Source: Trebouxia sp. TZW2008
Lineage: Eukaryota > Chlorophyta > Trebouxiophyceae > Trebouxiales > Trebouxiaceae
Direction of reading: 5' to 3'
NCBI GenBank assembly: GCA_002118135.1
Contig: BDIU01000211.1
Coordinates: 1-64,000, forward strand
Length of the DNA stretch: 64,000 nt
Positions 8,818 through 53,500 of this stretch are shown piece after piece. A program made the translations under genes and the position numbers. Position 1 is the first letter of the stretch. Each line of letters starts with the position of its first letter. The notes below the pieces were generated by a model. That model saw only the letters and a program-made list of their open reading frames with translations. It was not told where the DNA came from and ran no database searches.

Positions 8818-11800
8818 TCACCTGAAGTTGTGGGCAGGAATGAAGCTGTATCGCCATGCTTGTTTTCTAGCTATATCAGCCTCCATCTCCTGTGTATTGG
8901 GAAGCACAAAGTCACCCTGCACACATACAGCTAAGTACAGCAGGAGCAGCAGCAGCAGCAGCAGCAGCAGCCCTAGTCCCAGCAACAGTCACAGCAACAG
9001 CAACGGCAACGGCAACAGCACTCCATGTCGATGTTGCACGCATTCTATGCCCCAGTCACTGCACATTCTGTAAGGGCTGATCCCAAGTCTATGTGTTCAA
9101 TGGCAAATATGAAGGGTGGCAGGGGGAAAGAGGGGGCGGGGGCGCTGTGGGCCACAGTCACTGCAAATTCTTTAAGGACTGATCCCGAGTCTATGTGTTC
9201 AGTGGCAGATATGAAGGGTGGCAGGGGAAAAGGGGGGCGCAGGGTTTGGGGTGTGGGCTTACTTGTAACAGTGCAGCCAGCCATTCTGCTTGTAGGCCGC
9301 TGGTTGTGACTGCATTGTAGGTGATCACCTCGCTACCCACAAATGCTAGACCCTGCAACAACCACACATGCTGATCATGCTTGTTGCTCGACTCACAGGC
9401 CCCGTCTAGCTCCACCAATCACTATGATCAAGCCTACTGTTTCTGAAGTCAAATTTCACAACCTGCTATGAAGGACCACAGGCACGGCACGCAATTCAAC
9501 ACACTTGACACCTTTCAACTGCAAAGTATTGACTAACTAAATGACCAAATGACTGAGCAACCAGGTGAATAACATAGCACAACATCTGAATCTTTTGTTG
9601 GAGAGCATTGAGTGACAAAATGACAATGGCAGAGCAACCATTGACATTGCTTGCATATCAGAGCAATGTGTTATGCAGTTCATTCATTGCACTGTTTGTT
9701 GATTGCAAACAGCACTCTGGCTCGCTGTGTTGCCAGTGACACATTACACTGCGTGTTGTCTCACTGGCACAACTGGAACACCAGTCAACAAAAGGAGCTC
9801 AACGTGTAAGTGTTTTGGTGCAAATCACCTGCACATGAGGGGGGATGGTGTCTCTGTACAATGGAGTGCCTTCCTCTGTTTGATGTAGCTGTTTCAACAC
9901 ATCTTTTGACAGGTAGTCATATTTTCGGTCAAAGCCGGTGGCATAAATGACCAAATCAGCTGCTATGTGTTGGCTTGATGCTGTTTGCAAACCTCCCTCT
10001 GTGAAGCGCTCAGCTTGACCTGCTTGAAACACGCAACAGTGAGTACAGAGTAGTGAGTAGCATGTAGCGAGCAGTGAGTGGTGAGCAGTGAGTAGTGAGC
10101 AGCCTTGACGTGCAAAACAGCGTTCATCAACAGGGTTGCTGTGTTTGACACATGCATTCTTGCATTGCATGCAAGACTTCGGAAAGACGGCACCACTTAC
10201 CAGCAGCATGAGCCATGTCGTTGTGTTGACCATAAGAGTCAGCTTGGTAGTCCACCTGAAATAAAAAGAAAAGAAATGAAAAAAAGAGAAAAGAAAAGGA
10301 AAAAAAAAGAAAAGAAAAGAAAAGAAAATAGCCTGATTTTTGCTCAAGCGCAGGTGCTTCAGGAAAAGAGTGGCCTTGCAGCAGCATGGGCAGTGGAGCC
10401 CGTCATGAGGTCAGAGTGAACTAGCTACACAAGTCAGCTTGATGACCCTGGAGTGCCCACCTGGAATGACCTTGATCTTGCCTGAGCGCAGGTGCTTTAG
10501 GAAAATGGAGCCTGCGTTTATGGTTCCCAGCTCCGCAAAGGTATCTTCCTCAGCACCTCTAGTTGGAATCATCTCAGGTGGTAACCTGCGGGTGCATGAG
10601 ATCGAAGCATATTGGACTTTCATGGAAGCAGTTCATTGCATCATTATACACATAGATGCTGGGTTCCAAAGCCTGCCTAGCAGGCATAAAACCTAGCACT
10701 CAGAATTCCAGAATTTAGTCATGCTTTCTTCCCTGCTCAGTCATGCACCCCATCACAAGAACCGTGATGTAACCCTGAAAATGCTTAGTGATGGCAAATG
10801 GTCAGTGTTGTAAATACATATTGACCGAATATCTGGGTGAATGAAACGTGTCATAGCTGCATGCTGTACATGGCAGTCTGCATTGCATGTTAGCTCAGCA
10901 ACTCATGAACATGGAATGGCAGCCAATCAGGTTCTCTCGCAAAGTGTACCTTTTCAGCAAGATACTGAACCACGCCTGACTTGGAATGCGATTGCACCAA
11001 GTGCCACTTACAATAAGGCTTAGTAAGACATGCAAGGGAACATAAATGTGTGCATTAGCAGTGTTGCAAAAGAGCCTTCTTGCCTAGACTGCCATGGCAA
11101 AAGCCAGCCTACTGATTTCCATATAGCACGCTTTACAGGTCTCATGACGGCATGAAAAAAGCTTGTCAACCCTGGCAAACTGGGGTAGCTGCTGGGGTAG
11201 GGGTGGGTAGTCAGCCACACCCCAAAGCGGGAGTACTTGATGTAGTTGCAGGGCACTATGCCAAGTATGTTCAAGGGCATGAAGAAGTGAGCCTGCATAG
11301 CAATAGAGACACCGTAACAAATCAGGCATAGAAAGCACTTGTGAACCTTAGCAGAGTGGGGTAGCTGCTGGGGTAGGGGTGGGTAGTCAGCTACACCCCA
11401 AAGCGGGAGTACTTGATGTAGTTGCAGGGCACTATGCCAATCATGTTCAAGGGCAGGAAGAAGTGAGCCTGCATAGCAATAGAGACACCGTAACAAATCA
11501 GGCAGAGAAAGCACTTGTGAACCTTGGTAGACTGGGGTAGCTGCTGGGGTACAGGTGGGTAGTCAGCTACACCCCAAAGCAGGAGTACTCGATGTAGTTG
11601 CAGGGCACTATGCCAAGTATGTTCAAGGGCATGAAAACGTGAGCCTGCATAGCATCTAAGATACTGAGACACATGAAGCAGGAGTTCAGGAATATTCAAG
11701 CCCAGTCCAGTAAACTCTCTTTGTAAGCACACTTGATGTAGGACAATCTGTATGTAAGGACAACGCCATTGGTACCCAATCACTGCATTCAGACTGCAGT

Positions 11801-14755
11801 GATCCCTTCAAGTAAGGACAATGTAAGGGACATATCCCTTGGTAACCAAAGCAGCTGTTACAGAGAGAGTTTACTGTAGTCATCTGTTACTCAATGATGT
11901 AGTTGCAGGGCAACTCGCTCAGTATGTTGAAGGGCATGAAAAAGTGAGCCTGCATAGCAAATGGCAAACAATCAGGCACAGTATATAAGCTCCTGAGTCA
12001 CTTGGTACACAGTGCATTCAGTGAGTCTGCATGGCAAGTGAGACACTGTGGCAAATCTGGCAGCAATTCAGGACCATACAAACCCAGTCCTGGTTTGATG
12101 ATGCTCAGTGCACAGTCTGAACCCACACCCCCAAGTTGACACAGTGTCACTAAGTTGCAGCAATCAGGATAGCTTGTTGCTTGCTGCAGCTGGTTTTTAC
12201 CACACCTGTTGAGCATACAGTCACAACAAATGTGAGCGCATGGACTTATGTCACCACATCATATCCCTTGCAAGTTGCCATCGTGCAATGCAACAGTACA
12301 CACAGATTTATTCAGCATCAAGAAAAGGACTGGGAGCGTTACAAAAACACTATAAAATGGCTTTTTACATAGAAACCTCTCTGCCTTACTTGATGATCTG
12401 ATATACACGAAAGAAGTATACGACAAGCTTCAGACGTCAGGAGACTGATGGCTGGCAACCTAAAAAATACTTTTCCGTATGGTAAGGTATGCAATCAAGC
12501 AGTGACACAATGGCAGTATGCTGTAGACAACAGCAGCTTCAGCTGTGCTCAAGAGCTGTGGTCTGGTATGCCCTGCTACTAATCATGTTTCAGCTAAGCC
12601 GAAATGCTCCGTGTTTGACTTCCATATCAAGTCAGCACATGTGACTTGACTTACAGTCTTGACCAAAAAGAGCATGCTGATGTTGCACAGATGGTTCAGA
12701 AATGGCTGCCGAACATCAACAACTCTATATGCATTGTGGACGGCAAGTACCATGCACTGCAGAAATTTCACATGCATACAGAACTGCCCACCTGCCGAGA
12801 CAGCATCTTGACTGATTCTGCAACTTCACCAGCAGCTCCAGCCACGTCTAATGCAGATTTGGCACTGCCAATCACAACAACCCTTTTCCCTTGGGCAACG
12901 GCCAAGTTCTCTGTTGTAAGCTCTCTGGCGATGATCTCCCTGCCCTTGAAGAAATCCCTGTCCTGAAACAAGACATTTGCCACGGTTCTCAGAAAATAGA
13001 TGTGACCAATGTTACCGAGCTGATTGCTTGCACAGATTCCATTGTATAAGCAGTTGTCTCGATAGGCAAACCTCTTCAGGTGTCAATTCTATGCCGGTAA
13101 TCAGGCAGTTCGTATGTCATTGAACATCAGCGTTTGTAGCAGAAACAATCATGGAGTGTGTGCAACTTGTTGTATTGTGTTGAAACAGTGCAGCTTGTGC
13201 CTTGCAAGCACACTCCGATACTGCAGCTGCACCTCATGTTACAGTCAGTGCAACCGACTGAAATCGCATGTTCAATACTGACCACAAGGTACTCAGCACT
13301 GTTTGTGGAAACAGAGTTAACAATCTGTGAGAGTGTGATACGGATGTCAAGGCAGATACCAGTCAACAAGAATGTCACCTGAGTATTGGGACAAAAGCCT
13401 TGGCAGGAAATTGTTTGTAAACATTTACTTTTGCCAAAGTCACGCACATGAAAGCTGTCGAAGCAGTATTTCACAAGGTCAAACAGCATCTGTCAATACC
13501 AATCTCACCTGAATGTCAGGGATGCGGGGAGTTATAAAGCTCCCAGTGGCCAACACAATGTAGTCAAACTCCTCCCTCATGGCATCTGCATCTGCTCTTT
13601 TTGCTGAGGAGCTGAGCACTGTCCACTTCTTTGTCTCTGCACAATGATAAGAACATCAATGATAAACATCTCCTAGACCATAAACATCTACATGAAGTTT
13701 GTGTTCATGAAGTGTGTGTACACGAAACGAGTGTACATGTCATGGATTACAGTGATGTGAGTCTCTTGCTTGCTGCTTGCAATTTTGATGAGGCTTTCAA
13801 GGCAACAGTCCACATATGTCCCCCTGATGGCCATTGCAATGCAATTGCAAAATGGGTCAGTGCACAAGATGTCAGCAATTCCACGCACAGCATACCTGAC
13901 AGCATACAAGGTGCAGGCAGTCCTCATGGCATGCATCAAGTAAGGGACAGTGGCATGGTCTGATGCAGACAATCATGTGCTTACCTTGGTTTTGCGATAC
14001 TTGTGTTACAGTGGTGGAGAGGCTGATGGCAGAGTCCAAGGAGAAATGTTTGGCGTACATCTACAGCAAACACACAACATTCTTATGTGTTTGATGGCCC
14101 TGTGACAGATAGTGCAGGGGTTGTACATGTGGGCTGGAGGGTCGACCATGACGTCTCTCCCAACACTCAGTAACACATTTCATAACACGCAAAAAATGCT
14201 TGATATCAGCACTAAAGCGGCACCTTCAGCTGAGATACTTCCGTCTTGTGCTGTTTTGTGCTGTTTTGTGCTGTATTGACTGCTGAGCTGCTGTCAATGC
14301 TCATGCTGCTTTTGTACTGTGCACATGCAATGTAGCAGCAGGAAATGCCAACCTCAATGTACCGCTGCACAGCTGGACCAGGTGGGGTAACTGCATCAGG
14401 GTACTGCTGCTTGAGACTGGTTGGCCAAGGAAATTCTGGGAACTCATAGTACGGGTATGTCACTGCATACGGGCGAAAGCGTATTGCGTGTGCTCGTGTG
14501 CAGCGCAAGCTGTTCTACTATGACGGCAGCGTGCTGTTATATCTGTTCGGCTTTCATGATCACAAGTGCCGTGAGCAGCCGACTTGAGAACCACCGCGCG
14601 CGCTTGCCTTGAGCGCCTTGCAGATGCGCCGTCTGCCTCCAGACTCCGCCGACTTTCTCGGCCGCTTCATAAATGTGGAAGTCGATTCCGCGTTTCTGCA
14701 GAGCTCGCCCCTGCTGAAGGCCAGCGATGCCAGCGCCGACAATCGCTACCCTCAT
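8818..14755 (-). CDS. Flavin-containing monooxygenase (FMO-like)
   Basis: Starts at 14755 with the FAD-binding GAGIAGL (GxGxxG) and VGGVW motifs. Readable exons (minus): 14755 to about 14600, 14462-14353 (YYEFPEFPWP), 14060-13985, 13636-13509 (DYIVLATGSFITPRIPDI), 12962-12792 (second Rossmann motif VVVIGSAKSALD), an exon present in four copies between 11960 and 11095 (ILGIVPCNYIKYSRFG then FFHAVMRPVKRAIW), 10585-10471, 10255-10201, 10019-9829 (ADLVIYATGF), 9352-9263 (LAFVGSEVITYN) and 8916-8818, stop TGA. Class B flavin monooxygenases use NADPH and O2 to oxygenate N, S or ketone groups; the substrate here is unknown. The C-terminus is a little short if the stop at 8818 is real; a donor-like AG|GTGATT overlaps it. 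It faces away from the WLM gene. Confidence 0.85.
8945..9022. repeat. (CAG)n and imperfect (CAACAG/CAACGG)n microsatellite
   Basis: Nine AGC triplets in a row at 8945-8970, followed by an imperfect hexamer run to 9022. It lies in the last intron of the monooxygenase gene. Confidence 0.85.
9053..9240. repeat. Tandem duplication of ~107 bp in the last monooxygenase intron
   Basis: The block starting CAGTCACTGCA at 9053 and ending in a purine-rich run near 9135 recurs from 9160 to 9240 with a few changes. On the minus strand both copies read LPPF..A.EHID.GS.L.E, which resembles a degenerate version of the FMO C-terminal exon, so these may be decayed exon copies. Confidence 0.7.
10257..10327 (-). 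repeat. Extreme ~70 nt polypyrimidine tract at a 3' splice site
   Basis: On the gene strand an uninterrupted (TTTTC)n-like tract runs straight into TTTCAG at the acceptor of the 10255-10201 exon of the monooxygenase. It is both a microsatellite and the splice-site pyrimidine tract. Confidence 0.8.
11095..11960 (-). repeat. Four tandem copies of one monooxygenase exon (unit ~180 bp)
   Basis: The segment encoding AHFFMPLNILGIVPCNYIKYSRFG is present at about 11302-11216, 11481-11397, 11654-11575 and, more diverged, 11960-11895. Copies 1 and 2 are nearly identical including flanking intron; copy 3 has changes such as SCFG for SRFG; copy 4 reaches a stop soon after. Only copy 1 reads on without a stop into the downstream FFHAVMRPV segment. 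Confidence 0.8.
11745..11885 (-). mobile_element. Introner-like element copy 1 (in monooxygenase intron)
   Basis: Read on the minus strand it begins TACAGTAAACTCTCTCTGTA and contains GTTACCAAG, a TTGTCC box, the core ACTGCAGTCTGAATGCAGTG and a final TTGTCCTTA. Same family as 17862-17990, 19902-20041, 27265-27420 and 53190-53300. It begins a few bases after exon copy 4 of the monooxygenase array, in gene-sense orientation. Confidence 0.6.
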
Positions 14756-15490
14756 CTCGAACGCTCACAACGTGGCCTTCCCGATGTCTGTTGATAGATT
14801 TGCAGCAATCGCGTGAAATCCCGGTTCAGTGTAGCACTTCTTGCCGTTACTGTTGCCAGTGCTTGGAGCTTCTGCTTGTACTGCTGAGGATCATGTCATT
14901 ACCAACAATCTTAAGCCAATTGCAGATCTGGTCATGATGTGTCTTCTGCAGTTTGTCTATATCATGCATGCACTCACACCCAAGCAGACATAAGTGACAG
15001 TGATGAATGGTATCTTGCATGATGGTATCATGCATAATGGTAGTGTCAAGCTGTAAAAGGTGCTATTTGAGCACTCCTCCGGCAAAAGTGAGCCATTCAC
15101 TTGCAGGAAGGCACAAAACAGAATCACTTTTTGCCACAAATGCTCTTCACAAACGACAGCTGAGGTCTGTGCACCATCTAATGCATGATTGCATGCAGGA
15201 TCATGCGTCATGCTCACGTGGCTTGCACGTGACGAGCTGCTTCACGTGCTTCATCTCCCCATCGAGTCCGCGGTGACGCAAGACTTCGAGAATACACTGA
15301 GCAATGCAGTGAGATCTTGCACAGCGCAAACCTTGCATGACATCTCTGCAATCGCGGTACTGAGCTTATATCGGCTTCCGCTGGTGCAATAGCACAAGGC
15401 GCCAACGCTCGTATCCTTGACCTGTTTCGTCGTTTCATCTTTGGCAAACCGCACTCAGCGTAACAGCAAGGCTTATAACCTCTGCCGGCC
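14756..15490. promoter_or_regulatory. Divergent intergenic region, monooxygenase / WLM protease
   Basis: The 735 bp separate the two start codons. They hold no open frame I can support and no clear core promoter element. Confidence 0.45.
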
Positions 15491-18400
15491 ATGCAGTCTT
15501 CCGCTAAAGACTTTCTCATGCACGTACGATACCGCACCCTCGACACTCACATACGCGTCACAAGCGAGAATCCAGCTGCTGAGCAGATCGCCTCTGCAAT
15601 CTCCTCTGCAACTGGGGCTGACCCCCAGACCATCAAGCTCCTGGTGTCAGGTCACAAAGATCGCATGATACGATTGCTGACTACGCCGACACAGACAGCC
15701 CAAGAATTGGGTAAGTCAGGCACTGACTGTCCAGCTGATTTCTCCAGTCCACTATGCATAGACAAGATGAATGCCTGTCACTTTTAAGTGAGCTGAGTAT
15801 GCAGGCTTGGTGTCAGGCATGAGAGCTACAGTATATGCCAGCACGAAGGCAGAGATTAGCCAGGTGCAGAACAGCAGGGATCTGCCTGGCCTTGCCGGTT
15901 TTGAGCAGGAGTTGAAGCAGACCATGCGCAGGCAGCGAGGCAGCAGAAATGGCACGCTGAAACTGCCTGCTGGTGAGTTTGACTGTTGGACTCTCAGCAT
16001 AGAACTGACACGCTGAAACTGCCTGCTGGTGAGCATGACTGTGTGACTCCCAGCATAGGACTGGCACGCTGAAACTGCCTGCTGGTGAGCATGACTGTGT
16101 GACTCTCAGCATAGAAAAGAATAAAGAAAAGTCTATGCTGTTAGGCGTCATAACAGGAGCCTCCGCTTGAAGAGGCAGCCTGGGACTCTCAGCATAAAGA
16201 TGCATACCTGACTTTCACCAACATGTTGCTGGAACGTGTAGACATTATTGGCACCAACATGTCATGTACGAATGCTCACCTGTCCAGCTGAGGCTTTTCA
16301 CATTATGGAACAGCTATTGTGTGCGTGTTCTGAGGTTGGTGATACCTGCAACATCACTACAGCTGAGTTGCATGATCAGATTGGGCATGCACGAATCTGG
16401 CAAAGCTGTAATTTGTCTTCCTTCCACAATTGGCAGCCTGCCTTGATTTTCCAGATGAACTGTCTCAGAAATTTATGTGGCTTTAGATGAAAGAAGTATT
16501 GGCAGCATCAGGACCTTTTGCAAGCTGCCTAGCCTTGTTAACATTGTTCCATTTAGGAGGCTTAGATGGTTTGGTCACACAGCACATATGTCACAGGACA
16601 GACTGCCTTATCAGTGTATTTTTGGGCGGTTATTGGGCACTCAGGCCAAGGGTGAATCCAGAGATACTTGGCAGTCAAATGTTTACAAGAATCTCTCCAC
16701 CCTTCATGTCCAACATAGTTGGTTTTAGATTAGCGCATGACCGAGCTGGTTGGAGACAGTTGATTGCTTCTGTACGTACCCAGTCGCGCTTGCTGAGCCT
16801 GCCTAGCCCACGTTTCTGAGCAATGAATGCATGAATGAATCTGCAGCTATATGCATCAACACAAATGCATGGGCGAGCCTTTGTGCCTGCGCGCCACATG
16901 CCACTTCAGCTGAGCACTTCCGGTTGCTTGCACCTCCAGCAACACACTTGTCTGTTGGTACACAAATGTATTGCATGCTGTCACAAGGGCAATTCTTCAT
17001 TTGCTCATGTACTGAGCTGCCTGCTTTATGCTGTCCCAGGACCTTACACCTTCCAGAAGTTTGAGGCTTGGCAGCGCCCAGGTCTTTCACCAGTACTTAC
17101 TGAAGGGCTCAAACTGCTTCACAGGTGCTCATTTCACTCATCTCATTCATTATAAACGTAGGCTAGGCAGGCTCAGCAGGCCCAACGAGGTACCTACAGA
17201 AGCAATCAACTTCCCCTCATGTTTAGCTGCACCATGTCTAGCTGCATCATCTGGACTGTAGATGATCACCATCTTGTCTGGCTGCACCATTAGACCTGTA
17301 TGTTGATAGTTCGGGTATTCGGTTGCAAGTTGCATGGCTTCCCCCCATGTCTGGCTGCACCTCGTCTAGCTGCATCATCTGCGCTGTTGATAATCACCAT
17401 CATGTCTGGCTGCACCATTTGACCTGTACATTGATAGCTCGGGTAGCCGTTTGCACGTTGCATGGCTCATGCACCACTATCTTGTTGACTGCTCATGCAT
17501 CATGGCATGTCAAGAGCCAGCATCTGATCATGCATAATGAGTTGCAGCCATCAGATACATGAAATGTTGCACAAACTGCCTACTGCCACTTGATCTTGCA
17601 TAACGAGTCTCAGCAATCAGATACATGACATGTTGCACAACTTGCCTGCTGCCACTTGCTGACCTACAGTCATGCCTTGCTTTGTGGTTTGAACTGCATG
17701 CACCTGTCCAATGCATGATTCTTGCACATGTCTGCTGCTAGACCAGATGGACTCATTGAGCCAGTGACAGTGGTATGTGATCGTGGCAATTACAACTATT
17801 TTTTTGACTATAGTTCATTTCATTTCTCTTGACAAGGATACAGCAGATGAAGATGTTTGTGATATAAGGACAAGGCAGTTGAAACAAATCATTGCATTCT
17901 GACTGCAGTGGTATCTCTGAGTGTAGATGATTTAGTAGAGGGACAAGTCTCTTGGCAACTCAAGCAGTTGTTACAAGAGAAGTCACTGCTTTGCTGTGCC
18001 TGATGCTAATTGCTGCAATGCAGGTTGGCAGCGGACCCTGGCATTGTGGGCATTATGAGTAAGCATCGCTGGACTGTGGGGCTGTTAAGTGAGATGCCCC
18101 CAGAGGGTAAGGTGGGGGTCAGCCCTGTCTGCATCCTGGGGGTCAACATCAATGCTGGACAGGAAATCAGCCTGCGCCTCCGGACAGATGACCTTAAGGG
18201 CTTTAGGAGGTATGACTCACTTGCTCAAACGGAGGCCATCACCAGCGCCTGGTGTTGCGTCTTGTGTGATTGTCAGGATGTTGAGCATCATGCAGCTGTC
18301 ACCACATCACCTTTTGGTTGCATGTTATGCCTGGAATTGAGAGGTGCTCTTATTGTGATTATGGGAATGACAAACCTTGGCTGATGCTTTGTGGCATCGT

Positions 18401-20869
18401 TGTCTGACTTCCACAGCTTGCAAGGAAGGAAGTTATATTAGCATGTCTCATTAGCGCATCTATCCGTGTGACCTGTCGTGTCCAGTGCAGCGATTGGCAA
18501 GACAACCATCAATAGTATTAACTGGCTCCTGTAGATCCTGGTCTTGTCACACAACGCGCACAAGGGCTTTCTCTCTTTCTCACCACCTGGTTTCCTTGCT
18601 GTAGGTATGACAGGATACGTGAGACGCTGTGTCATGAGCTGGCCCACATGGTGTGGGGTGAGCATGATAACAGATTCAAGCAGCTCAACTCTCAGCTGCT
18701 CAAGGAATGCGGTCAGCTTGATTGGACAGGGCATGCAGGGCTTGCTGTCTCAGGGTTACAGGAGGCAGCATTTGCCAATCCGGCAGAACCCACATGGGTT
18801 GACGAGGATGATGTCATGGCAGTGACAGCACAGTCCTCTGGACAGAGCCTCAGGCAGCTGGCAGGAGGCGACGCACAGCCGCACGGACGGACTGTGACCG
18901 ATCCAAGGCGAGCAGCAGCCATGGCAGCTTCTGCCAGGCTTGCTTCTGCCAACGCAAGCCCTAGCACTAGCAAATTCACAAATCCAGAAGCAACAGCAAG
19001 CAGAAGTACAAACAATCAAGCCTTAGGCTTGGCAGGTGTTGAAGGAGAGTCATCTGCCCACACAAATGCAACTTCTGCTGAAGCTGCAGCAGGCACAGAG
19101 GTGGCACTCAACCCTGAAGCTGACATTGCGAGTATGGGACATCATGACCCTACCACTGAGCAGGCCGAGGAGGCCATGAGAGCACTAGGGTCTATGGACT
19201 TTGCAGCTGAGGCACAGTGCGTTCAGCAAGATGATCACAAAGGCGATGACAACTTGCATCAAGCATCTCAAGCCCGATTGCAGCAGCAGCATGGTTTTGT
19301 GGCTGATGCACTTCAGAATGTTCAGAGTCCTGCTGACAAGGACGTAGCAATGCCTGATGCCAGCATGCTTCAGCAGCAACAACCAGACCAAGCACATGCT
19401 GCACCTGACTTCCACAGGCAGCAAGCAGGTCATCAATCACCTGCTGGTGCACATAAAGCTCATGCTGCAGTTAGCACAGGCACAGATACTGTGCTGCTGG
19501 AACAGCCAACAGGCCAAGCTGATACAGCTGCTTCAAGGCAAGCTGTTGGAACAGTCAGTCATGAGCCAGACGCAAATTTGCATAGTCGTCAAGCACACCA
19601 CAGTCCAGAAGCTGCTTTCAAACAAGCAGATCATAGTCGACAAGCCGCTCCGACACAAGCAGATCCTAATGTCGAAGCCACCTTTACACAGGCACACCAC
19701 AGTCTACAAGCTGCTTCTGCACAAGCGGATCACAGTTTACAAGCTGCCTCCCAGGAAGTTGATGGCAGCAGCAGTTTGGATGCAGATGACCCTGCTGTGC
19801 AGCGGTATAGGCAAGCAGAGGCCGCGCTTGCACAGCTGAAGACCCAGGCTGGCGTTGCAGGCCAGCAGGCTGCCTTGCAGACGCTGGCCAAGATCCTGCA
19901 GGTACAGAATTTGCTCTTGACAACAACTGCATTATCAAGGAGACTACATCAAATTGTTTGTGATCAAGAGTGACCATTGCGGTCAGAATGCAGTGCTGGG
20001 TCACCAGCTGTTCTTAGAGAACGTCCTTATATCATGTGGGTTTTATATTGAGGGATGATTGTAAGACCACTCAATATGTCTGATCATAATGCTGTGGTGC
20101 TGTGTTCTCTTAGCAAATGCTGACAGCCTGTGCTTTGGCAATGACCTTTGCCCAATGATTGTGTGGTGTGCTTGACACAAGCATCTTGTCATGCGAAAAT
20201 GGCTCCCAGTGCTTTGATCAAAGCAATTGCTCTGTCTGAGCAGGCTGCAATACCATCTAGACAGCATGCGTGGCATGTATGCTGCTTGTGTTGCTGACTA
20301 CATTAACATGATACAAGCAGAACACATATCGCCAGCGTCCTGTCTTTAGAACATTGCACAGCAACAAATACATACAGCACCCATATTGACAGCGTCTTGC
20401 TCTGCAGAACATTGCACATCCAAAGCTACATGCAGCACCCATATTGACAGCGTGATGTTCTGCAGAATATTGCACGCCCACAGCTGCATGCTCCATGTCG
20501 ACAGTGTTATATACTGCACAGCATTGCACATTCAGAGATACATGCAGCACCCATATTGACAGCATCAAGTTTTGCTGAACATAGCACATTCATAGATACG
20601 CGCAGCACCCATATTGACAGCTTTTTGTTCTGCAGAACATTGCAAGCCATCCTGGTGAAGCTAAGTACAGTCACATCCGGCTGGGCAATGCAGTCTTTTA
20701 CACAAGGGCAGGCCAGTTTCCTGCAGCCCTGGAGCTATTGCGGGTTGCTGGGTTTAGTGAGCAGGCGGAGGGGTTAGCTGACAAGGCTTTGGTGTGGAAG
20801 CGAAATGATCATGGCCTGCTTTGGCTGACATTGTCAGCGGTCAACAGCGCTCTGCAAAGCCCTGCTTAA
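15491..20869 (+). CDS. UBL-WLM-PUB domain zinc metalloprotease (Wss1/SPRTN-like class)
   Basis: Six exons with matching phases: 15491-15710, 15805-15972, 17040-17124, 18024-18209, 18605-19901 and 20636-20869 (729 aa). Residues 8-115 form a ubiquitin-like domain ending GMRATVYAS. Residues 158-270 are the WLM domain: LAADPGIVGIMSKHRW, LRLRTDDLKGFRRY, then HELAH (230-234) with a further His at 240. WLM proteases of the Wss1 type cleave DNA-protein crosslinks and SUMO conjugates. A long Gln/Ala/His-rich linker (about 270-610) includes tandem 12-residue units of the ADHSLQAAS type. The C-terminus (about 615-729) fits a PUB domain (HPGEAKYSHIRLGNAVFY), which in other proteins binds p97/Cdc48. The combination suggests ubiquitin- and Cdc48-linked proteolysis in the nucleus. 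Introns carry boundary repeats, two introner-like copies and LINE pieces. Confidence 0.9.
15951..16115 (+). repeat. Threefold tandem copy of exon-2 end plus 5' splice site (WLM gene)
   Basis: The string CACGCTGAAACTGCCTGCTG followed by GTGAG occurs at 15953, about 16008 and about 16063, each with the following ~30 bp of intron. The first is the donor that keeps the frame; the other two are intact-looking donors inside the intron. Confidence 0.9.
16477..16822 (+). mobile_element. LINE (non-LTR retrotransposon) 3' remnant
   Basis: The plus strand shows the typical LINE C-terminal signature LRWFGHTAHMSQDRLPYQCI and then, in another frame, AHDRAGWRQLIASVRTQSRL with a stop at about 16820. Broken by at least one frameshift; sits in intron 2 of the WLM gene. 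Confidence 0.65.
17152..17218 (-). mobile_element. Short 3' fragment of the same LINE family, minus strand
   Basis: The minus strand reads GKLIASVGTSLGLLSLPSLR, matching the end of the 16477-16822 element (LIASVRTQSRLLSLPSPR). Lies in WLM intron 3. Confidence 0.55.
17862..17990 (-). mobile_element. Introner-like element copy 2 (WLM intron 3, antisense to the gene)
   Basis: The reverse complement gives GTGACTTCTCTTGTAACAAC, a TTGCCAAG box, CTTGTCC, CACTCAGAGATACCACTGCA with the core GTCAGAATGCA, and TTGTCCTTATAT. It ends about 33 bp before the acceptor at 18023. Confidence 0.6.
19902..20041 (+). mobile_element. Introner-like element copy 3, starting exactly at the 5' splice site of WLM intron 5
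   Basis: The exon ends CTGCAG at 19901 and the element begins GTACAGAATTTGCTCTTGAC, with CTGCATTATCAAG, the core GCGGTCAGAATGCAGTG and the end GTCCTTATAT. Same family and same start as the copies at 27265 and 53300. Confidence 0.65.
20349..20640 (+). repeat. Five to six tandem ~57 bp units that each repeat the exon-6 acceptor
   Basis: CAGCACCCATATTGACAG starts at 20375, 20433, about 20488 (degenerate), 20545 and 20603. Each unit ends with a version of TTCTGCAG|AACATTGCA, which is the real acceptor and first codons of WLM exon 6 at 20635/20636. At least three upstream copies keep CAG or TAG before AACATTGCA or AATATTGCA. Confidence 0.9.
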
Positions 20870-21297
20870 TAAATGTCGTGATATGATGCAGAAGTAAAGC
20901 CAAGCTAGTGATGTTCAGATGTGAGGTGCACTTCGACAGCAATGACAGCTCGGATAAGTACATACATGCCGCATGCTGCGGCAGCAATGTGGATATGAAT
21001 TGCAACGAAGCTCACTGACCGCCCAGGAAGGCTTGACAATCTTTATACGACCTCTTGATAAGTATCTGTATAAGTATAAGTAGGTACGCAGTCACCCCCC
21101 CTTCCTTTGTGCCCGCTTGAAATCGTGTGATCAGCTTTGCGCAAGTCGGTATGATGTCTTAATGTCAAGAATGGTCGAAGCGCAAAGAATCTTGGGGCAA
21201 TCTTTGAGGAGCATTGGCCTTGAGAGAGACAGAGAATGTTTTTACATGCTTTAGCCAGCCAACAAGGCTGATCACATGTGCCACACTGTGGCAATGA
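20870..21297. other. Intergenic, no gene seen
   Basis: Follows the WLM stop codon. An (AGTAT)n-like run near 21040-21085 is the only structure noted. Confidence 0.5.
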
Positions 21298-21626
21298 CTA
21301 TATGTTCATGAAATTCAGGCAGTCTATGACATGGTGAAACACCCCCAAATGATCATGTTGCGCAAAAATAGCGCGCATGTTATAACCGCAGCTCTCAAAC
21401 AAACCAGGGTACTTGGCCCGCAACCCAGCCAATGCTCCACATTCAAACACTAAGTGCCTTTCATCGCCCAAGGCCCCAGAATCACAAAGTGTGCACAACC
21501 TACAGGCTCTAGCAATGCCACTGCGACGACCAGCAGCAATAGGAAGCTGGTGACAACCAAGCCTAAACTGTAGAAAGCGCTGCATGTTCCTGCCAGAATA
21601 TATGTCCATGAAATTCAGGCAGTCTA
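21298..21626 (-). mobile_element. LINE remnant with CCHC-type C-terminal motif, bounded by a 27 bp direct repeat
   Basis: A minus-strand frame reads RLCTLCDSGALGDERHLVFE and then CGALAGLRAKYPGLFESCGY, the Cx2C...Hx4C tail typical of several LINE reverse transcriptases. A 27 bp repeat beginning TATGTYCATGAAATTCAGGC occurs at 21300 and again at 21600, so the frame begins and ends in the same peptide (DCLNFM). No reverse-transcriptase core is left. Confidence 0.65.
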
Positions 21627-26101: not shown

Positions 26102-28034
26102 ATGGCAGGGGTCTGGGACTATGGCGACGCAGACGATATCAAACCGCTCACTGACAGTAGCGGTGAGTGGCAGAGCAATACCTGCTGCATCTGCCATCTC
26201 CAGCTGGCTGCACACGAAGCAGAATGCAGCTTCCGTCAGTAGGCAGTTGCTTGTAGAAGCTTCTGACAACAGCCTGTTCCTACAGAGGATGAGAACAGCC
26301 CTGGTGACGACCATGACGAGCTTTCGTTGCTTCCTGCAAACAAACGCAGGAAGCTACGAAAAAGGAACCACGCACGCAAATCTGTCGAGCTGGTAAGGTG
26401 TACTCTCTGCGTGGATGTTAGATGTTGCCACAGCTGACTGCTTCCCCGCTGCAGGCCACAGCACACAGTCACATGCGTTGAGCAAAATCCTGCACATTGA
26501 CTGCACCCAGCATGCTCAAGAGCCAGTGGTTTGTGCACTAGAGGCAGCGTGCCAGACGTCTCAGCTGTAGACATCTGAGCAAGTCTTTCCTGCAGATTGA
26601 TCTGGAAAATGAGGAAAGTGATGATCAAGACAGAGGCTTGCAAGACATGTACAAGAGTAGCAAGCCTGCAGTGAGAAGGGCCACCCGCTCAGACTCTGAT
26701 AGTGATCTTGAGTACAAGCCGACTGTGAAACGGTCAGCAACGGTCCCTGTCAAAGTGGCACAATGCATGTAGATCCTCTCACCATCTCATGTTCACTCTA
26801 CAGCATTATCATGTAAACGCATGCACAATATTGCAATCTTGGCACACAAGACTCACGCTGCAATCTGATGCACCTCCTGCCGTATTTGCAGCCTGTATAA
26901 AGCTCAACGTCATTCTGTGGCAGTCATGCTAGCAATTGCATTGCGCTATGCTGGCCCACTACATAAAAGTAAGATTTGCATTGCTTCAGCGTGATGATTG
27001 CAGCGTCATCTACACTTCACTGGCATTAGCCAAGTTAGTGCTTCTTTTTGAAGGCAACAACTGCGCTATGCACTGCTTGAGTTCGTCATCATGTTGTGAT
27101 TTACCTTCATCAAAACTCAATGGAATCAAGCAAAGTTAAAGCCTGCTCCTGTAGGCACCACATCAGCAGTATACCGCTTGATCCTATCATCCTACAGAAC
27201 CAGGCATTGCTGCAAAGCTTCAGGGAGGCTGCACAGGAGCCTGAAGAAGAAGAGCCTTTGCCAGGTACAGTAATTTCTCTCTGTAACGACTGCTTTGAAA
27301 ACCAACAACATTGTCCTTGCCATGAACTGAATGACTCAGAGGCACCACTGCAGTCAGAATGCAGCGATTGGTTCCTGTTTGCCTGGTCCTTACATTGAGA
27401 ATGTCGTTATAAAGATTGAGTGGCCTCACAAAGAGAAGTAGTGTACTCGTTTGCATCTGCTAGATAGGTCCTGCAGGTGAAGCGCGTGCACTAAAGCGAA
27501 ATCATCAGCTCATGCATTAGATTCTAAAAATGTGTCGACCCTTCATAGCAGCAGTCAGTGCGTCCCCAGTGAAAACTAGTTACATGCTTTAGTGCCGCAT
27601 CTGCATGCAGTGCACAACAGTGGAAGCCCTCAGATCATAAGGGTTCAACAGCTTGCATTGGCCATGCAGATCCGATGCCTCGCCTCACAAACAGGCAGTT
27701 GGTTCCAGTACCAGAGACCCTCACAGACTTTGAAGACGATGATAAGGGTGATTGTGGCAGTGATATTGGAGAACCAACTCCAGAGCCAGAGGACGACAAA
27801 GTTGTTTTGACCTTGCAATGCGCAGCAGGCAAATTGCAGCTCAGAATAGGCAGAGATATGGCTTTCAGCAAATTGTTTGACATCTACAAGCAGCAAGCTA
27901 GTAAGAAGGGATGGCTTTCGGCTGACAAGGCGCCAAATGTGAGATTTGTGTTTGACGGAGATAGACTTGGTGGCAATGAGACAGCCACCCAGCTTGATCT
28001 TGAAAATGATGACATTATTGAGGTGAACTGGTGA
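26102..28034 (+). CDS. Rad60/Esc2/NIP45-like protein with C-terminal SUMO-like domain
   Basis: Five exons: 26102-26162, 26286-26392, 26596-26754 (donor AAA|GTGGCA is weak; 26742 is an in-phase alternative), 27198-27264 and 27670-28034; 252 aa. The N-terminal part is acidic and basic by turns (DENSPGDDHDELS, then KRRKLRKRNHARK, a likely nuclear signal; RSDSDSDLEYK). From about residue 170 the protein is a ubiquitin-fold domain: VVLTLQCAAGKLQLRIGRDM, FVFDGDRLGG, then DLENDDIIEVNW at the very end with no di-Gly, so it cannot be conjugated. This fits Rad60-SLD proteins, which help SUMO-dependent genome maintenance with the Smc5/6 complex. The family usually has two such domains; I see one. An introner-like element begins at the donor of exon 4. 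Confidence 0.75.
27265..27420 (+). mobile_element. Introner-like element copy 4, starting exactly at a 5' splice site
   Basis: Exon 4 of the SUMO-like-domain gene ends TTGCCAG at 27264 and the intron begins GTACAGTAATTTCTCTCTGT, then AACGACTGCTTTGAAAACCA, TTGTCC, GACTCAGAGGCACCACTGCA with core GTCAGAATGCAGCG, and GTCCTTACATTGAG. It matches the copies at 11745-11885 and 19902-20041 along most of its length. Confidence 0.7.
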
Positions 28035-28542: not shown

Positions 28543-30905
28543 TCATCTTCTCTGGTAGAGAACATGAGCAACCCCCCAAGTCGCTCCAGAGGAATGCCTA
28601 AACAGCTCAGCTGTCATCATGTACACTAAGCGGCATTGCATGTACTGCTTCTGACTTTGCTGTGGCCCATAAACATCCTGCAGGCACCGCCTGAAGCTTG
28701 ATGACAAGCCTCAGAAGTCAGTACAGCGATTTCTTGATGTCACCTCTGCATTTCTTAGCAAAAGCTAGCCATCATATCAAATTGTCACTACTCAGAAGTA
28801 CCATTGCAGTCAAAATGCAGTGCCTGCTTCCCACTGTCATTGTTGTTCCATCAAGAATGTCACGATACCAAGTGTCACCACGACAAGAAAACACCGTACA
28901 CGAGTCCGCTGTGAGACTGGGCAGATGTCAATATTGGTCAACATCTGCCATGCTTACCTGCATCACAGCCATGATTGCCTTGTGCTGTTGGTCGTGATTG
29001 TGCAGCCAAGCTAGAGCAGTCTTTGCATAGTTCTGTCCACTGATGAACCATTCCTTTCTGAGTCTCAAAGCGCCCTGCAGGCAAGTCATCAGCACATGTT
29101 GAGTTAGCACAATAACGTACAACTCACCCTGTCATTAGACTGTCTTCCAATGTGTGGCCATCACTTATTGCTGTACAACCCTGCCACAAGAACGCAGGCT
29201 TATCTATACAGTGAGTGACAACATTTGCTTGCACATTGCCATTCACTTGTCGCTCAACACACTAAATTGCAAGTTGCACGGCAGCAAGATTTGTACACCC
29301 CAAAAGAGGGCACAGTCTGCTGTATTGATGGGTCCTGTCTGTACTACAACATGCTTGCACAAGGACCAACACAACTACAATTGACTTGCCAAGAAACGAG
29401 TAGAAAGTTTAAGTTTGGGACAGGATCTCACAACCATGACTTGCAACATTTTACCAATGAAAGCTGTTCAGCAAGTTTCATGCGTACCTGGCTTTTGTGA
29501 CGTTTGGAGTGGTGGCATTCCTCTTGCATGAACAGAAAGCCATCAACTTTGAGCTGCTGCCCAGCACCAAGCGCAGTAGCCTACACAGGCACATACTTGC
29601 TCAGTGATGCCACAAACAAACACTTCTCTCGTGTAGACTCCACCTGGGTTCAGCAATTGCTTGATTGATGTACTACTCTGAGGTGTTTTGCAGCTACCAG
29701 GCTGTACCTGAAACACTCCTGGTTGCTGGCAGCCTTCGATCTTGAGTACTCTATCATACTGCGTGCCACCATTGAAGCTGGGTGCATCCCTGAGCACCAA
29801 CTGCAGACAAGACAGAACACGTTGCCGCAGAGTAGAGCTTCATGTGGCTGTTCTTGCATGCCAAGTCTTGCCAATGCAGCTTACAAGCACATTGCAACCA
29901 CAGAGAGGATCATGCACATTGCATAACAGACAGCACTCAAAAAGTCTTGTGGCAGATCAGCATGCATGCACAGCAAAATCACCATTGCAGAATCACCTTG
30001 AGGTTTGTAAGGCCTCTCTGCCTGCGCTGTCTGCTGACATAAAGCTTTTGTGACCTGCTGTTGCAGACTGCAGTCACTCGGCTGTTTGGGTATCTGGCAG
30101 CAATGTACAGACTCAAGGAGCCCCAGCCGCAGTTGACATGCAGGACGTCTTGGCCATCTGTGAGCTGTGCTCTTTGACAGGTAAGTTCTGTAGATATATG
30201 TCAAGTGAGCATCATCAGCACGTACGAAACTTAGCTATCTGTCACGATGATGCACACTTTTCAGACCAGTGCAGTCTCAGCATGACAGTATTGTTGCAGG
30301 CTGTCCACCATTGATAAGTGCACAAAGACAGGCAGTTCTCCTGCCAAAAGTCACCTAGCATGCTGTCCTCAGCCTCATCTAAGGTCATGTCCGCATCAGG
30401 GAACAAGCAGCAGCTGTCTTTGAGCTGCCTCCCCAAAACAAGCTGATGGTAGGCTGCAGGCAACTGTTGATTGCATCAGGCTTGCTCAAGTCACTGCTCA
30501 TGCACAGCTGATCGCAAAGACAGCTGGATGTACCTCAGCGTCAAGCTGCTGGGCACACCATGCAGGCCACAACTGGGTGGTGTCGCTTGCAGTTGGATCG
30601 CCTTGCAGCCGCTGTGTCGGATTGCCGCGTTTGCCTGTGGTGTAATTCCAAGCAACGAACATTCGCAGTCCCATTCGCGAAATAGCATCTGGGACAAGTC
30701 CACGGTTGAACAGGGCAGCGCAGACCCGTGTGGCTAGCTGACAACATAGCCTAAACGCGTGCGAAGACAACATCGCAATGGTGCTGCCGTTGCAAGTCAG
30801 GCAGACCAGATATTGAGCAAGTTGAAGCGCAATAGTGCGAGTCAGCTGTGAGTTGCGATAAGCGCATGCTGCGAGACCACTGCGAATACCTCGTCTCGGA
30901 GCCAC
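28543..30905 (-). CDS. Cyclopropane-fatty-acid-synthase-like SAM methyltransferase, divergent
   Basis: Eight exons with consistent phases: 30905-30534, 30463-30355, 30187-29997, 29800-29708, 29677-29597, 29556-29488, 29074-28958 and 28677-28543 (388 aa). Family features in order: FNRGLVPDAISRMGLRM near residue 75; PAAYHQLVLGRQLKDSCCLF and MTLDEAEDSMLG (residues 125-160); SAM motif I region GQDVLHVNCGWGSLSLYIAA (about 172-191); RRQRGLTNLK; TQYDRVLKIE; then NYAKTALAWL and AELFRHSSGATWGVAHVLYQ at the end. CFA-type enzymes use SAM to add a methylene or methyl group to unsaturated acyl chains. Oddities: motif I reads HVNCGWGS where ELGCGWGS is usual, the EMFEH and GGxMPS segments are missing or unrecognisable, and the intron 29596-29557 is only 40 nt. 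It may be a divergent active enzyme or a decaying gene. Confidence 0.75.
28780..28840 (+). mobile_element. Introner-like element, partial copy
   Basis: AAGTACCATTGCAGTCAAAA then TGCAGTGCCTGCTTCCC repeats the core of the element (ACCACTGCAGTCAGAATGCAGTG). It lies in the last intron of the methyltransferase gene, antisense to it. Confidence 0.4.
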
Positions 30906-44500: not shown

Positions 44501-47500
44501 CTGCTTCTGCATACATAGAGCACATGTCTGAAGGGATGCCTGCTCTGAAGCCCAGGCTATCCGAGGAGGACCCCACTGCAGGGGCTGCATGCTCTAGCAC
44601 TGGCACAGCCCTGCATACACAAAGCATCTGTGAAAAGTTGGGGGTTTGGCGTCGACTTGGTCTGACTGTAAAGCTGTTTGTCAGCAGATAGCTGCTTCTG
44701 CATACATAGAGCACATGTCTGAAGGGATGCCTGCTGTGAAGCCCAGGCGATCAGAGCAGGACCTCACTGCTGGTGCTGCATGCTCTAGCGCTGGCACAGC
44801 CCTGTATACACAAAGCATCTGTGTGAAGTTGGGGGTTTGGCGTCGACCTGGTCTGACTGTACAGCTGTTTGTCAGCAGTTAGCTGCTTCTGCATACATAG
44901 GGCACATGTGTGAGGGGATGCCTGCTCTGAAGCCCAGGCTATCAGAGTAGGAGGCTGCATGCTCTAGCACTGGCACAGCCCTGCGTACACAAAGCATCTA
45001 TGTGAAATCGAGGAATGGCGTTGACTTGGTCTGACTGTACAGCTGTTTGTCAGCAGTTAGCTGCTTCTGCATACATAGGGCACATGTGTGAGGGGATGCC
45101 TGCTCTGAAGCCCAGGCTATCCGAGGAGGACCCCACTGCAGGGGCTGCATGCTCTAGGGCAGGGACAGCCCTGCGTACACAAGGCGTGTTGTTGAGGGCT
45201 AAGAGCTGAAAGTTGATTCAGTCTCGCTCCCAACACAACTGTTCCAAGGCATTTTGCTGCTTCTGTCTTCTCTGGGCGCAATTGTGGAGATTCCAGCAGG
45301 GAGATAGGTGGTGAAAGTGCATACTGAAGCAGCTTGAGCTGGCCTGTACATGTGCAAAGTCAGACACATGCAAGGTCTGCTTGTGTGCAAGCAGAGTCTG
45401 ACAGAAATGCTGAACAGCAGACCATCAAGTCAGGTTGATGCAAGCTAGTTCTGATCAATGGAACCTGCATGCTTCTGTGATGGCTTGTCAGCAGTCACTC
45501 TACTTCCCAGCAGTGCCCAGACAGCAAATGGACATCCATAATCATGTAAGTGTGAAGGTTCCTTCTGTGCTGCAGCACACTTTGATGATTACAAATTTGG
45601 GCGTTGGCCTCATAGGTCCCCCTGATGTAGCAATGTCTGCGACATAACGCTGACGCCAGGATTGTGCAAACGTCGACATTCATTGCAACGAGATGTGTAT
45701 TTGGTACAAAATGGGGCTGCTGACCTGAAGAGGGGTTGCAGAAGGGCAACTGGGAAGTCAGTCAGCATGAGGGTGGCATTCTGATGGGGCCCAAGCAGGG
45801 TGCCCCGAAGCACCAGCTTGGCATCAGCGGCTCTGAGGGCCATTTCCTCCAGCTTCAATCCCTCATTGCTGTGGCAGCTGCCCACCGCTAACACCTGCAC
45901 CCAACACATGCTCTCATCTGTTGATGCTCCTCTTTGCTATGATATGTTGGTGTTTGTGGCAGCTGCCCACCGTTAGAAACTGCTCCCAGCACATTGATCA
46001 ACTTCTTTTATTCATTGACTGAAGAAGGCACATGCTGGCACCTGCAGCTCTTAGCGCCATCCCCTCGTTGCTGTGGCAGCTGCCCACCGCCACCTGCACC
46101 CAACATATGCTCTCATCCATTGATGCTCCTCTTTGCTATGATATGTTGGGATTTGTGGCAGCTGCCCACCGCTAGAAACTGCACCCAGCACATTGATCAA
46201 CTTCTTTGATTCATTGACTGGAGAAGGCTCGTGCTGGCACCTGCAGCTCTCAGGGCTGTCTCCTCCAGCTTCAATCCCTCGTTGCTGTGGCAGCTGCCCA
46301 CCGCTAACACCTGCGCCCAACATATGCTCTCATCTATTGATGCTCCTCTTTGCTATGATATGTTGAGATTTGTGGCAGCTGCCCACCGCTAGAGACTGGC
46401 CCAGCACAGACCCAGCACTCTGTTCAACTTCTTTGATTCATTGAGTGGAGTGGCAGCTGCCCACCGCTAACACCTGCACTCAACATATGCTCTCATGCAT
46501 TGATGCTCCTCTATTTGCTATGATATGTTGGGATTTTTGGCAGCTGCCCACCGCTAGAAACTGCACCCAGCACATTGATCAACTTCTTTGTTTCATTGAC
46601 TGGAGAAGGCACATGCTGGCATCTGCGGCTCTGAGGGCCATCTCCTCCAGCTTCAACCCCTAATTGCTGTGGCAGCTGCCCACTGCTACTACCTGCACCC
46701 ATCGTATGCGCTCATCCATTGATGCTCCTCTATTTGCTATGATATGTTGGGATTTTTGGCAGCTGCCCACCGCTAGAAACTGCACCCAGCACATTGATCA
46801 ACTTCTTTGTTTCATTGACTGGAGAAGGCTCATGCTGGCATCCGCGGCTCTGAGGGCCATCTCCTCCAGCTTCAATCCCTTGTTGCTGTGGCAGCTGCCA
46901 ACGGCCAAAACCTGCACCCAACACATAAACTTATCCTTTGGCCCCTCTCCTTTCACTAACATGAGATGATTACACTATCACCCCACGCACTTGGTTCGTG
47001 CAGTCAGTGCCCCGCTGCAAATCGACGCCCCTCGCATGAAACCCTGATTTGGCTGCCATCCTCTCTACCTCATCACATTACGCCTGAAACTTTCCCTTGC
47101 CACCCTTACGCACTCACGTCATTGCGAAACCCTCAAGTCCCTCACCACTTGCTAGCAGGGCATGATCAGCACGCAGCAACACTCACTTGGTCCATGGAGT
47201 AGTTGCCCCACTGCCAGTCAGCTCCCTTCACATCAAAGTCTGTATTGGCTGCGCCGCCTCCACCCCCATAAGCCTGGAAGGCCCCACTCCAGGAGCCCCT
47301 CAGGTCTTGAAGGCCTGGCACATTCCCACGGACGCCCCCACCCTTGCCTGGGCTGCCGTCAAAGGCGTTCTTGTCCTTCAGCGCTGGCAGGGACGTGTGT
47401 GCTGAAGCCTCCTGCAGGGTATGTGCCTGCTGGCGCGCCTGTTGGGCAGCTTCCTTTAGCTGCGATGCCAGGCTCTGCAGCAAAAACAGAACAGCTGTGT

Positions 47501-50500: not shown

Positions 50501-53500
50501 CACTAATCATACAACAGGACCAGTCTGAGGTTGGCACTGCTATCATGGTGAGCTTTGCTCGTGTCTGAAGTTGAGCTCATCGTTGTTTACTGGGCAGCAG
50601 CATGCTAAAATAAGCCTGGAATAGGATGCATCACTGTAAAGCATAATCTCAAATAACCTGCCTAAAGATTGAGAGGCTTTGCCAAAGCGCGGCACAGGCA
50701 GCATGTCAGCAACCCCTAGACGGCCTGGCAGCAGACCCCCCAAGGTTTGGGTCTTGACGGGGGGCGGCTGTGGGGCAGCTTGGGACTGGAACAGGGGCAG
50801 GGCCAGACCAACATCCAGTGACTCATCAGACCTTGAGCCCTGCAGGAGGAAGAAGATGGATGAGACTCTAAGCCCTGCAGGCAGAAGAAGAACAAGAAAG
50901 CAGCACAGTACGCGCTGCAGTCACAAGTTCGTGCAGATACATTAATCGCAAGCCCCTTAAACACACATCTGAGCAGGGCTCATATGCTCCAATACTGCAA
51001 GCCTTCCAAAAGTAAAATGTATTTTTGAGCAGAGAGCGTGTGAAACAGTTGCTGGCAAGCTGCCTGGCAGGCTTCCTGAGAAGGATTTCCAACTACCACA
51101 TATAGTCTCTACAGATCCTGGTCTTGCTCTCTGGTTGCAGGGCAGCTTCACCCTTGGCCAACTGCATCAACAGCTACTGACAGAGTAATGGCTTACCTTG
51201 GCATGCATGTGGACCCCCTGGTCTGACACCTGCAGGCTGCCTGCCAGGTTGCGGGAAAGCTTCAGCTGGTTCACCCTCAGCCCATCCAGCAACACATCAC
51301 CTGGAGCAATAACAATCACCTCACATGCAAACACAACAACTTGCAGCAACAGCAGACAGCTGCAGGCTGCCTGACAGGTCGCAGGAGAGCTTGAGCTGGT
51401 TCATTTTTAAACCGTCCAGCAGCACCTCACCTGAAATAACAGCCTATCAAGCGAAGCAGTAAGTCCTGCCTCAAGCAGGCACAGATCAGTGTGGCGACCA
51501 CGCATGATTTGGAGCAGCAAAACAAAACCTGTCGAACTACGATCCCAGCATTTCATTTCACTTCACTTCACTTCATTTCATTTCATCATTTCATATCTGC
51601 TTGTTTGCATTGGTCAGGACAGCGTTGAACTCATCTGCTTCAAGGCAGTCAGCTGCTTCTGCATGCACCCATGAGGGTGCAGGTTCATGAAGCCTCGCTA
51701 TAGCATACACATGATGGTGGTGCTGATGCGTGCAGAGTTAGTAGGAGCGGATTTGGGTATTAGTGCAGGTCAAATATGATGCAGCATCAGCTGCAGTGAT
51801 GGCTTTACGTGACAGGTAGGCAAGGTGATGTGTACCTTCAAAGGCTGCAGCAGGCAGCTGAGCAGCAGTGGCAGGCAGATCTGGCTGTGGTGAGAGGCGG
51901 CCAGACAGGCGGGTGCGACCTGTCAGCCTTAGCCTTGTGGGCTGCCCAAACGATGGCCTGTCGGCTGTTGATGGGGACACAAATGGCATCACATCCAGAC
52001 CCTGGAGCACGAAAACGAATTTGGACACTACACTGCAGGCACATTTGAATCAGCCCAGCTAGGAAATGGTGGTAGGCAGATCTGGCTGTGGTGAGAGGCG
52101 GCCAGACAGGCGGATGCGGCCTGTTAGCCTGAGCCTTGTGGGCTGCCCAAAAGATGGCCTGTCCGCTGTTGATGGGGACACAAATGGCATCACATCCAGA
52201 CCCTGGAGCACAAACACAAACTGGCAGTGAGGTGCAGTGGTGATACATTTGAATTAGCTCAGCTGAGCAGTGGTGGCAGGCTGGTCTGGCTGTGGTGATA
52301 GGCAGCCAGACAGGCGGCTCCGACCTGTTAGCCTGAGCCTTGTGGGCTACCCAAATAATGGCCTGTCGGCTGTTGAGGGGGGCACCAAAGGCATTACATC
52401 CAGACCCTGGATGAGGAATGCAGGAGTTCACATGTTGAGATTGAGACTGGTAGATTGCAGTAGCCTTGTCAGCTGCCCTAACAATGGCCTGTTGGCTGTT
52501 GAGGGGGACACCAAAGGCATTACGTCCAGACCCCGGAGCAGGAATGCAAGAGTTCACATGTTGAGATTGAGAATGGTAGATTGCAGCAGCCTTGTCAGCT
52601 ACCTTATTGATGTCCTGTCAGCTGTTGTTGCGGACACCACAGGCATTACGTCCAAACCCTGGAGCAGGAATGCAAGAGTTCACATGTTGACATGGAGACT
52701 GATGGATTACAGTAGCCTTGTCAGCTGCCTTAATGATGGCCTGTCAGCTGTTGTTGCGGACACCAAAGGCATTACGTCCAGACCCTGGAGCAGGAATGCA
52801 AGAACTCACATGTTGAGATTGAGACTGGTAGATTGCAGTAGCCTTGTCAGCTGCCTGAATGATGGCTTGTCAGCTGTTGATGCAGACAGCAAAGGCATCA
52901 CATCCAGACCCTGGATCATGAACACAAAGAAACCTTCATCTTGGTAAGGCTGAGCACCCCTGCTTGAGGCATACAGAAGCTCTGCATTGCCTTTGCCATC
53001 AGAGCCATGCTGTTTGCTCCTTCAGGCAAGGCCTCAAGCATTTGTTGTAGAAAACAAAGTGAGTCCTCCGCTCTTTGGCCCTCTCAAAGAACTGATGTAC
53101 CAGGCCTCCCCTCAAGTTAGATAGAGGAATAAGGGGCAAGATATGGCTCCGACATTGACCAGCAATCTCACTTGACAGCACAATTGGGAGTCGACCACTG
53201 CGTTCTAGATGAAGTGTTACCTCTGAGTCAGGACAACCCTATATTTTGACAACCACCATGGTGTCTGACGCAGAGTCAGTGTAAAGAGAAGTTACTGTAC
53301 CTTGAAGGTTGCATCCACTTCAGCTCCTTCCAAGAGCGGCACTGACACTGCAGTGACCTCGGCTTGCGTGATGGCTGCCTTCACCTTCTCAGGCGCTGGA
53401 GGCTGCATGTGTAGCATGCCAGTCACGTCCACATCAGGTGACCTGCACAACAGAGTGGTTGACACATATCTCAGCTAGCTAACATCAACTGCTTTACTGC

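Follow-up and report, generated by a model that had tools for sequence, protein, structure and literature searches.

A small TA-flanked transposable element of Trebouxia that probably enters pre-existing introns at their 5′ splice sites

In this study, we describe a short dispersed element in a 64,000-nucleotide stretch of the chlorophyte Trebouxia sp. TZW2008 (contig BDIU01000211.1, positions 1 to 64,000; hereafter the window), where three of its six copies adjoin a 5′ splice site, or donor. The window lies on contig C203; the genome comprises 68.5 Mb in 527 contigs. We consider it very probable that the element is a non-autonomous miniature inverted-repeat transposable element (MITE) of IS630-Tc1-mariner type, which invades pre-existing introns and preserves their donors. 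This reading is drawn from the inverted repeats of the element, its TA target duplication, its copy number, its enrichment at exon ends, one pair of filled and empty donors and one intron that extends past the element.

Structure, copy number and target duplication

From 61 full or nearly full copies, we derived a consensus of 178 bp, counting both TAs, that starts with TACAGTAAcTTCTCTTTGTAA and finishes with the inverted equivalent. The inverted repeats, of the CAGTAAACTCTCTTTGTAA type, read CAGTAA...TTACTG and are flanked by TA, and the consensus further includes five GTAAGGACA repeats and, as its core, a short hairpin. The element is short, non-coding, present in many copies and bounded by terminal inverted repeats, as MITEs are. 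The RNA fold of one window copy is better than that of its shuffles (z -5.2), as expected from the long inverted repeats. Mean pairwise identity among the 61 copies is 77%, so most of them are old.

That a repeat is shared by six places of the window, as the original prediction had stated, was confirmed with a profile rebuilt from 56 copies outside the window, since the first profile had included five window copies. All six places belong to one family of about 178 bp (E 2e-15 to 6e-44), and in 20 resamples of the window under an order-1 Markov model there were two matches, the better one at E 0.31. Genome-wide, the core pattern with at most 3 mismatches was found 1,414 times, compared with 0 in a reversed control. 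Both results leave practically no room for the idea that the similarity is due to chance or to low-complexity sequence common to introns. The core pattern lies on at least one strand in 86 of 131 sampled copies and on both strands in 1; this sample is not random, and the counts suggest that the genome may hold some 2,000 copies or more. In viral and prokaryotic collections the exact core patterns had 0 matches, a search for exact matches only, in collections that may lack near records, which says little. Among the titles returned by a literature search, none describes this family.

The boxes of the original prediction are inner parts of the element, and its boundaries were too short. They missed the inverted-repeat partners, for instance the left end of the first copy at 11706, where the arms (11708-11726 and 11858-11876, 19 bp) match at 18 positions. 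Likewise, 28780-28840, previously taken as a mere core, belongs to a full copy at 28722-28898.

Three loci, L055, L082 and L040, contain tandem repeats with the element in one unit but not in another, and their element-free units align without gaps across the insertion point, where they have one TA. The target-site duplication is therefore TA. Consistently, TA stands at both ends in 93 of the 111 copies with recognisable ends, a figure that is partly built in, as ends were placed by a TA-bearing motif. No longer direct repeat was found, flank identity over 1, 2 and 3 bases being seen in 26, 6 and 0 of the 111 copies. A 3-bp duplication, prompted by AAG on both sides of the copy at L005, was rejected, with flank identity at chance over these copies.

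The TA duplication, the CAGT ends and the presence in the genome of decayed transposases with DDE_3 and Tc3-type HTH domains place the element, by mechanism, with the IS630-Tc1-mariner MITEs, which are also short, non-coding and bounded by inverted repeats. It differs from them by its enrichment at 5′ splice sites. Passages of PMC8533490 describe TA target duplication for most Tc1/mariner families and give SPDLNPIEN and QQDNA as catalytic motifs. DDE_3 (PF13358) was found at 4 places of the genome, two of them on contigs C117 and C191, and a transposase relic at another, L109, carries QQDNA and SPDLSPIEN. L109 (G000:C203:210500-212300) lies on the window's own contig and is a broken Tc1/mariner-type relic, with its DDE_3 and Tc3-type HTH domains in separate frames. 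The PF03184 profile had no match in the genome, and control genomes likewise gave none. A Tc1/mariner-type transposase presumably moved the element.

Stowaway MITEs of plants are also small, duplicate TA and have inverted repeats with a CTCCCTC-type end. The present inverted repeats begin with CAGTAA, not CTCCCTC, and thus lack the Stowaway end.

Enrichment at donors and target preference

We call the end near ACTGCTTTG the B end and the other the A end. Over the whole genome, 35 of the 385 matches to the B end and 15 of the 244 to the A end have AGG just ahead of the TA (together AGGTA), compared with 2.2% of 21,028 TA sites in sampled DNA, and ends at AG/GTACAG (the slash marks the exon-intron boundary) are enriched three- to fourfold. 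The original prediction of a dispersed family with ends enriched at 5′ splice sites is thereby borne out. The three donor coincidences that it had pointed to in the window (GT at 19902 on the plus strand, 27265 on the plus strand and 53300 on the minus strand) are present in the sequence, each preceded by an open, coding-like stretch. All three use the B end. Among copies not selected for AGG, the motif stands at 9 of 146 ends, with 8 among the 75 B ends and a single one among the 71 A ends. In the genome-wide count of A ends, roughly 18 out of 100 listed places are internal matches as judged by eye. A bias of the donor coincidence towards the B end is possible rather than established.

Are these ends true exon ends? 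Nineteen upstream pieces, hand-picked from the 55 AGG ends, were compared with Pfam, and 7 pass the gathering cut-off (HECT, E2F, abhydrolase, MatE, TMP-TENI, F-box and ceramidase). The other 12 comprise 6 matches below the cut-off at E <0.01, one weak match (E 0.028) and 5 pieces without a match. Many AGG ends are therefore real exon ends, and their donors are presumably used in RNA. Under a strict threshold, an early coding model called coding-like 0 of 16 upstream flanks at the A end and 18% of 39 at the B end, compared with 2-3% elsewhere. With a later model and a looser threshold, coding-like DNA lies upstream of 35 of the 55 AGG ends, whereas for the remaining AGGTA sites the count is 169 of 442 (odds ratio 2.8, p 4e-4). 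The donors of this genome appear loosely conserved: AG is preceded by C or A, position +3 is A or G, and little is fixed beyond. The estimate is weak, as the coding model behind this consensus was crude, with 19 long frames as its training set, and the thresholds had been loosened.

Part of the donor enrichment is target preference. At the 137 ends without AGG, G precedes the TA in 47% of cases compared with 29% in the background (p 7e-6), C stands at -4 in 39% compared with 24%, and few C are found at -2. It could be that the coincidence with donors is nothing more than this, GTA-rich targets overlapping with CAG/GTA donors that play no special role. The base preferences at non-AGG ends favour this explanation, and a wider motif such as CAGG could account for part of the excess. 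It sits less well with the 177 B ends that have G before the TA, 35 of which carry AGG where 7.8% would be expected (p 3.5e-7), nor does it predict the excess of coding DNA upstream of AGG ends. On balance, we regard it as a serious contender that falls somewhat short of an even chance. The part of the enrichment that the target motif leaves unexplained hints at a preference for donors, whose cause may be open DNA at exon ends, the wider CAGG motif, or tolerance of insertions at donors combined with their loss from exons.

Intron creation weighed against entry into existing introns

We propose the following mechanism. The element inserts at TA and duplicates it, favouring sites with G just before the TA. 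At a donor such as CAG/GTA, the target TA would be bases +2 and +3 of the intron, so that the duplicated TA would preserve AG/GTA and the element's CAG, coming next, would rebuild the donor as AG/GTACAG. The element would then become the 5′ part of the existing intron and lengthen it. With targeting by TA and a preceding G, and donors like CAG/GTA or GTG (on the weak estimate above), donors would often be hit.

The original prediction held in contrast that the element creates introns by carrying splice sites. This is not supported, as the donor's GTA is target: its G is host DNA, its TA is the target, and the element proper starts at CAG. Three tests on limited material bear on the question. 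First, at locus L055/L111 (G000:C67:186140-187350; hereafter L055), the exon end and the intron start are tandemly duplicated about 132 bp apart, which leaves two candidate donors in a row. The element-free unit reads GTGCAGAG/GTATGTAGAACGG and the filled one GTGCAGAG/GTA[element]TATGCAGAACGG. The element-free duplicate, AG/GTATGT, reads as an ordinary donor, and the element inserted at the TA of a donor-like site that is present in its absence too.

Second, in a HECT-domain gene (L004), the domain resumes at VELVPGGSN, between 155 nt (earliest) and 659 nt (last unit) past the element, the uncertainty coming from five units with a 126-nt step that repeat the exon start and the preceding intron (L004:1831-2400). 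The donor exon alone matches HECT at E 1.8e-8, and with the last unit appended the match improves to 1.3e-17. By this homology, the HECT intron runs at least 155 nt beyond the element, and the ends of the element do not match both intron ends.

Third, insertion into an exon should leave an open frame across the reconstructed empty site. The upstream frame is clear in 35 donor copies; 13 of them keep it open over 20 codons, compared with 15 and 12 for the other frames. There is thus no excess of open frames across the 35 empty sites, and downstream flanks score at background with the coding model. Exonic insertion was considered and finds no support in these 35 sites or in the L055 duplicate. 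Over the one filled/empty pair and the 35 frame sites, we found no sign that insertion gave a previously continuous exon an intron. Taken together, the three tests indicate that the element makes introns rarely, if at all. A scan for acceptors left most next exons unplaceable, and wrong phases often scored like the right one.

A true introner would have to insert into an exonic AG/GTA and make an intron there, with a donor composed of target and inverted repeat and an acceptor taken from the element or from the flank just beyond. The element resembles introners in its many similar copies, some of which start exactly at a donor that comes partly from the target, as in some families covered by passages of PMC9860276. 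According to these passages, introners can obtain splice sites from target duplications or from an adjacent exon; lacking an acceptor of its own would therefore not, by itself, exclude an introner. The enrichment of AG/GT ends, the upstream pieces proven by Pfam to be exons, and two loci (L062 and L039) where the putative intron is almost all element would also fit. The L055 donor present without the element, the HECT intron reaching beyond it and the frame counts all speak against, as do the far end of the element, which reads ...ACTGTA without an AG of its own, and L062 itself, where a 31-nt empty site would shift the frame. We judge this explanation very improbable. The element is not classed as an introner because intron creation, examined on this limited material, was not found; it differs from introners by an intron longer than the element where this was tested, and by the L055 donor that exists without it.

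Several observations nevertheless weigh against entry of the element into existing donors. Of the donor copies in the DNA examined, L055 alone is paired with a duplicate free of the element, and the donor there is putative. At L062, 28 nt seem to separate the element from the next exon, leaving only 31 nt for the earlier intron; joining the exons barely alters the Abhydrolase_1 match (E 1.9e-7 before, 1.3e-7 after), and Hydrolase_4 gives a weak match across the junction (E 0.008). At L039, a compatible frame seems by eye to resume 5 nt past the element, and no Pfam family was found to support it. In both cases the element makes up nearly the whole putative intron. The introns may have shrunk, or the element may on rare occasions itself be the intron, which keeps a rare intron-forming role possible. 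Furthermore, the preference for G does not account for the full donor enrichment, and matching inverted repeats are absent around L109 and L110, two of the four DDE_3 places, over about 1.8 kb each.

Going further than the entry into existing introns that we favour, we tentatively suggest, as an idea that may well prove wrong, a transposon family with a preference for 5′ splice sites. Its target preference, with G preceding the TA and C at -4, would together with the CAG end let it enter donors, rebuild them as AG/GTACAG and so occupy a splice-neutral niche. Introns would grow from their 5′ end with a donor that is part transposon and so mimic introners, and occasional later shrinking of old introns would leave the element as nearly the whole intron.

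These results separate two look-alikes, elements that make introns and elements that enter existing donors which stay readable. Surveys of introners that rely on similar introns with the same starting sequence could miscount such a family as intron gain, and filled/empty pairs like that of L055 are a direct way to distinguish intron makers from donor invaders. If donors are truly preferred, this would be a natural case of a transposon using the overlap between its target and a splice site to limit harm.

Copies and other features of the window

The copies of the element and the two domain-bearing coding stretches next to them are listed in Table 1. From flank comparison, the predicted empty site is AG/GTAAGACC for the copy at 19903, which would read as an ordinary donor, and AG/GTACTCG for the copy at 27266. 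The WLM and SUMO-like (Rad60-SLD) gene labels given earlier hold; those of monooxygenase, methyltransferase and TIC236 are unconfirmed, with no Pfam match for 9799-10407 (the monooxygenase label) nor for the exon before 53300 (the TIC236 label).

Table 1. Element copies and adjoining coding stretches, in window positions
Feature	Position	Strand	Evidence
Full copy with its two inverted repeats; TC in place of the left TA	11706..11878	+	nhmmer E 6e-44
Full, diverged copy; terminal TAs lost	17814..17990	+	nhmmer 17816-17989, E 8e-28
Coding stretch with WLM domain, ending at donor 19902	18522..19901	+	Pfam PF08325, E 2e-15; start approximate
Diverged copy; B end adjoins donor CTGCAG/GTACAG (GT at 19902) of WLM-domain gene	19903..20063	-	E 2e-15
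Full copy; B end adjoins donor CCAG/GTACAG (GT at 27265) of Rad60-SLD gene	27266..27445	-	E 6e-38
Open frame with Rad60-SLD domain, downstream of copy 27266	27573..28034	+	Pfam PF11976, E 3.3e-11; acceptor approximate
Full copy, TA at both ends	28722..28898	-	E 6e-28
Copy with degenerate outer left end; B end adjoins donor CAAG/GTACAG (GT at 53300, minus strand)	53159..53299	+	E 1e-17, profile positions 54-178

Other repeats were also seen in the window. A large inverted repeat spans 1329-2471, with arms of 434 nt that are 94% complementary and an inner second pair of arms (138 nt, 86%). A second dispersed repeat, at 7386-7484, 16746-16839, 17133-17212 and 57498-57599 with inverted copies at 16758-16826 and 17143-17211, is possibly another small inverted-repeat element, and a further one (23944-24064 and 53901-54021) is 80% identical across 121 bp. 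Long tandem arrays occupy 43687-45209, 45819-46948, 40939-41750 and 42145-42917, with 66-92% identity among copies. Another array, at 51838-52947, has a 126-bp step that is shared, maybe by coincidence, with the array in the HECT gene. Finally, two tRNA matches on the minus strand, at 40410-40482 and 40591-40660, exceed the Rfam gathering score.

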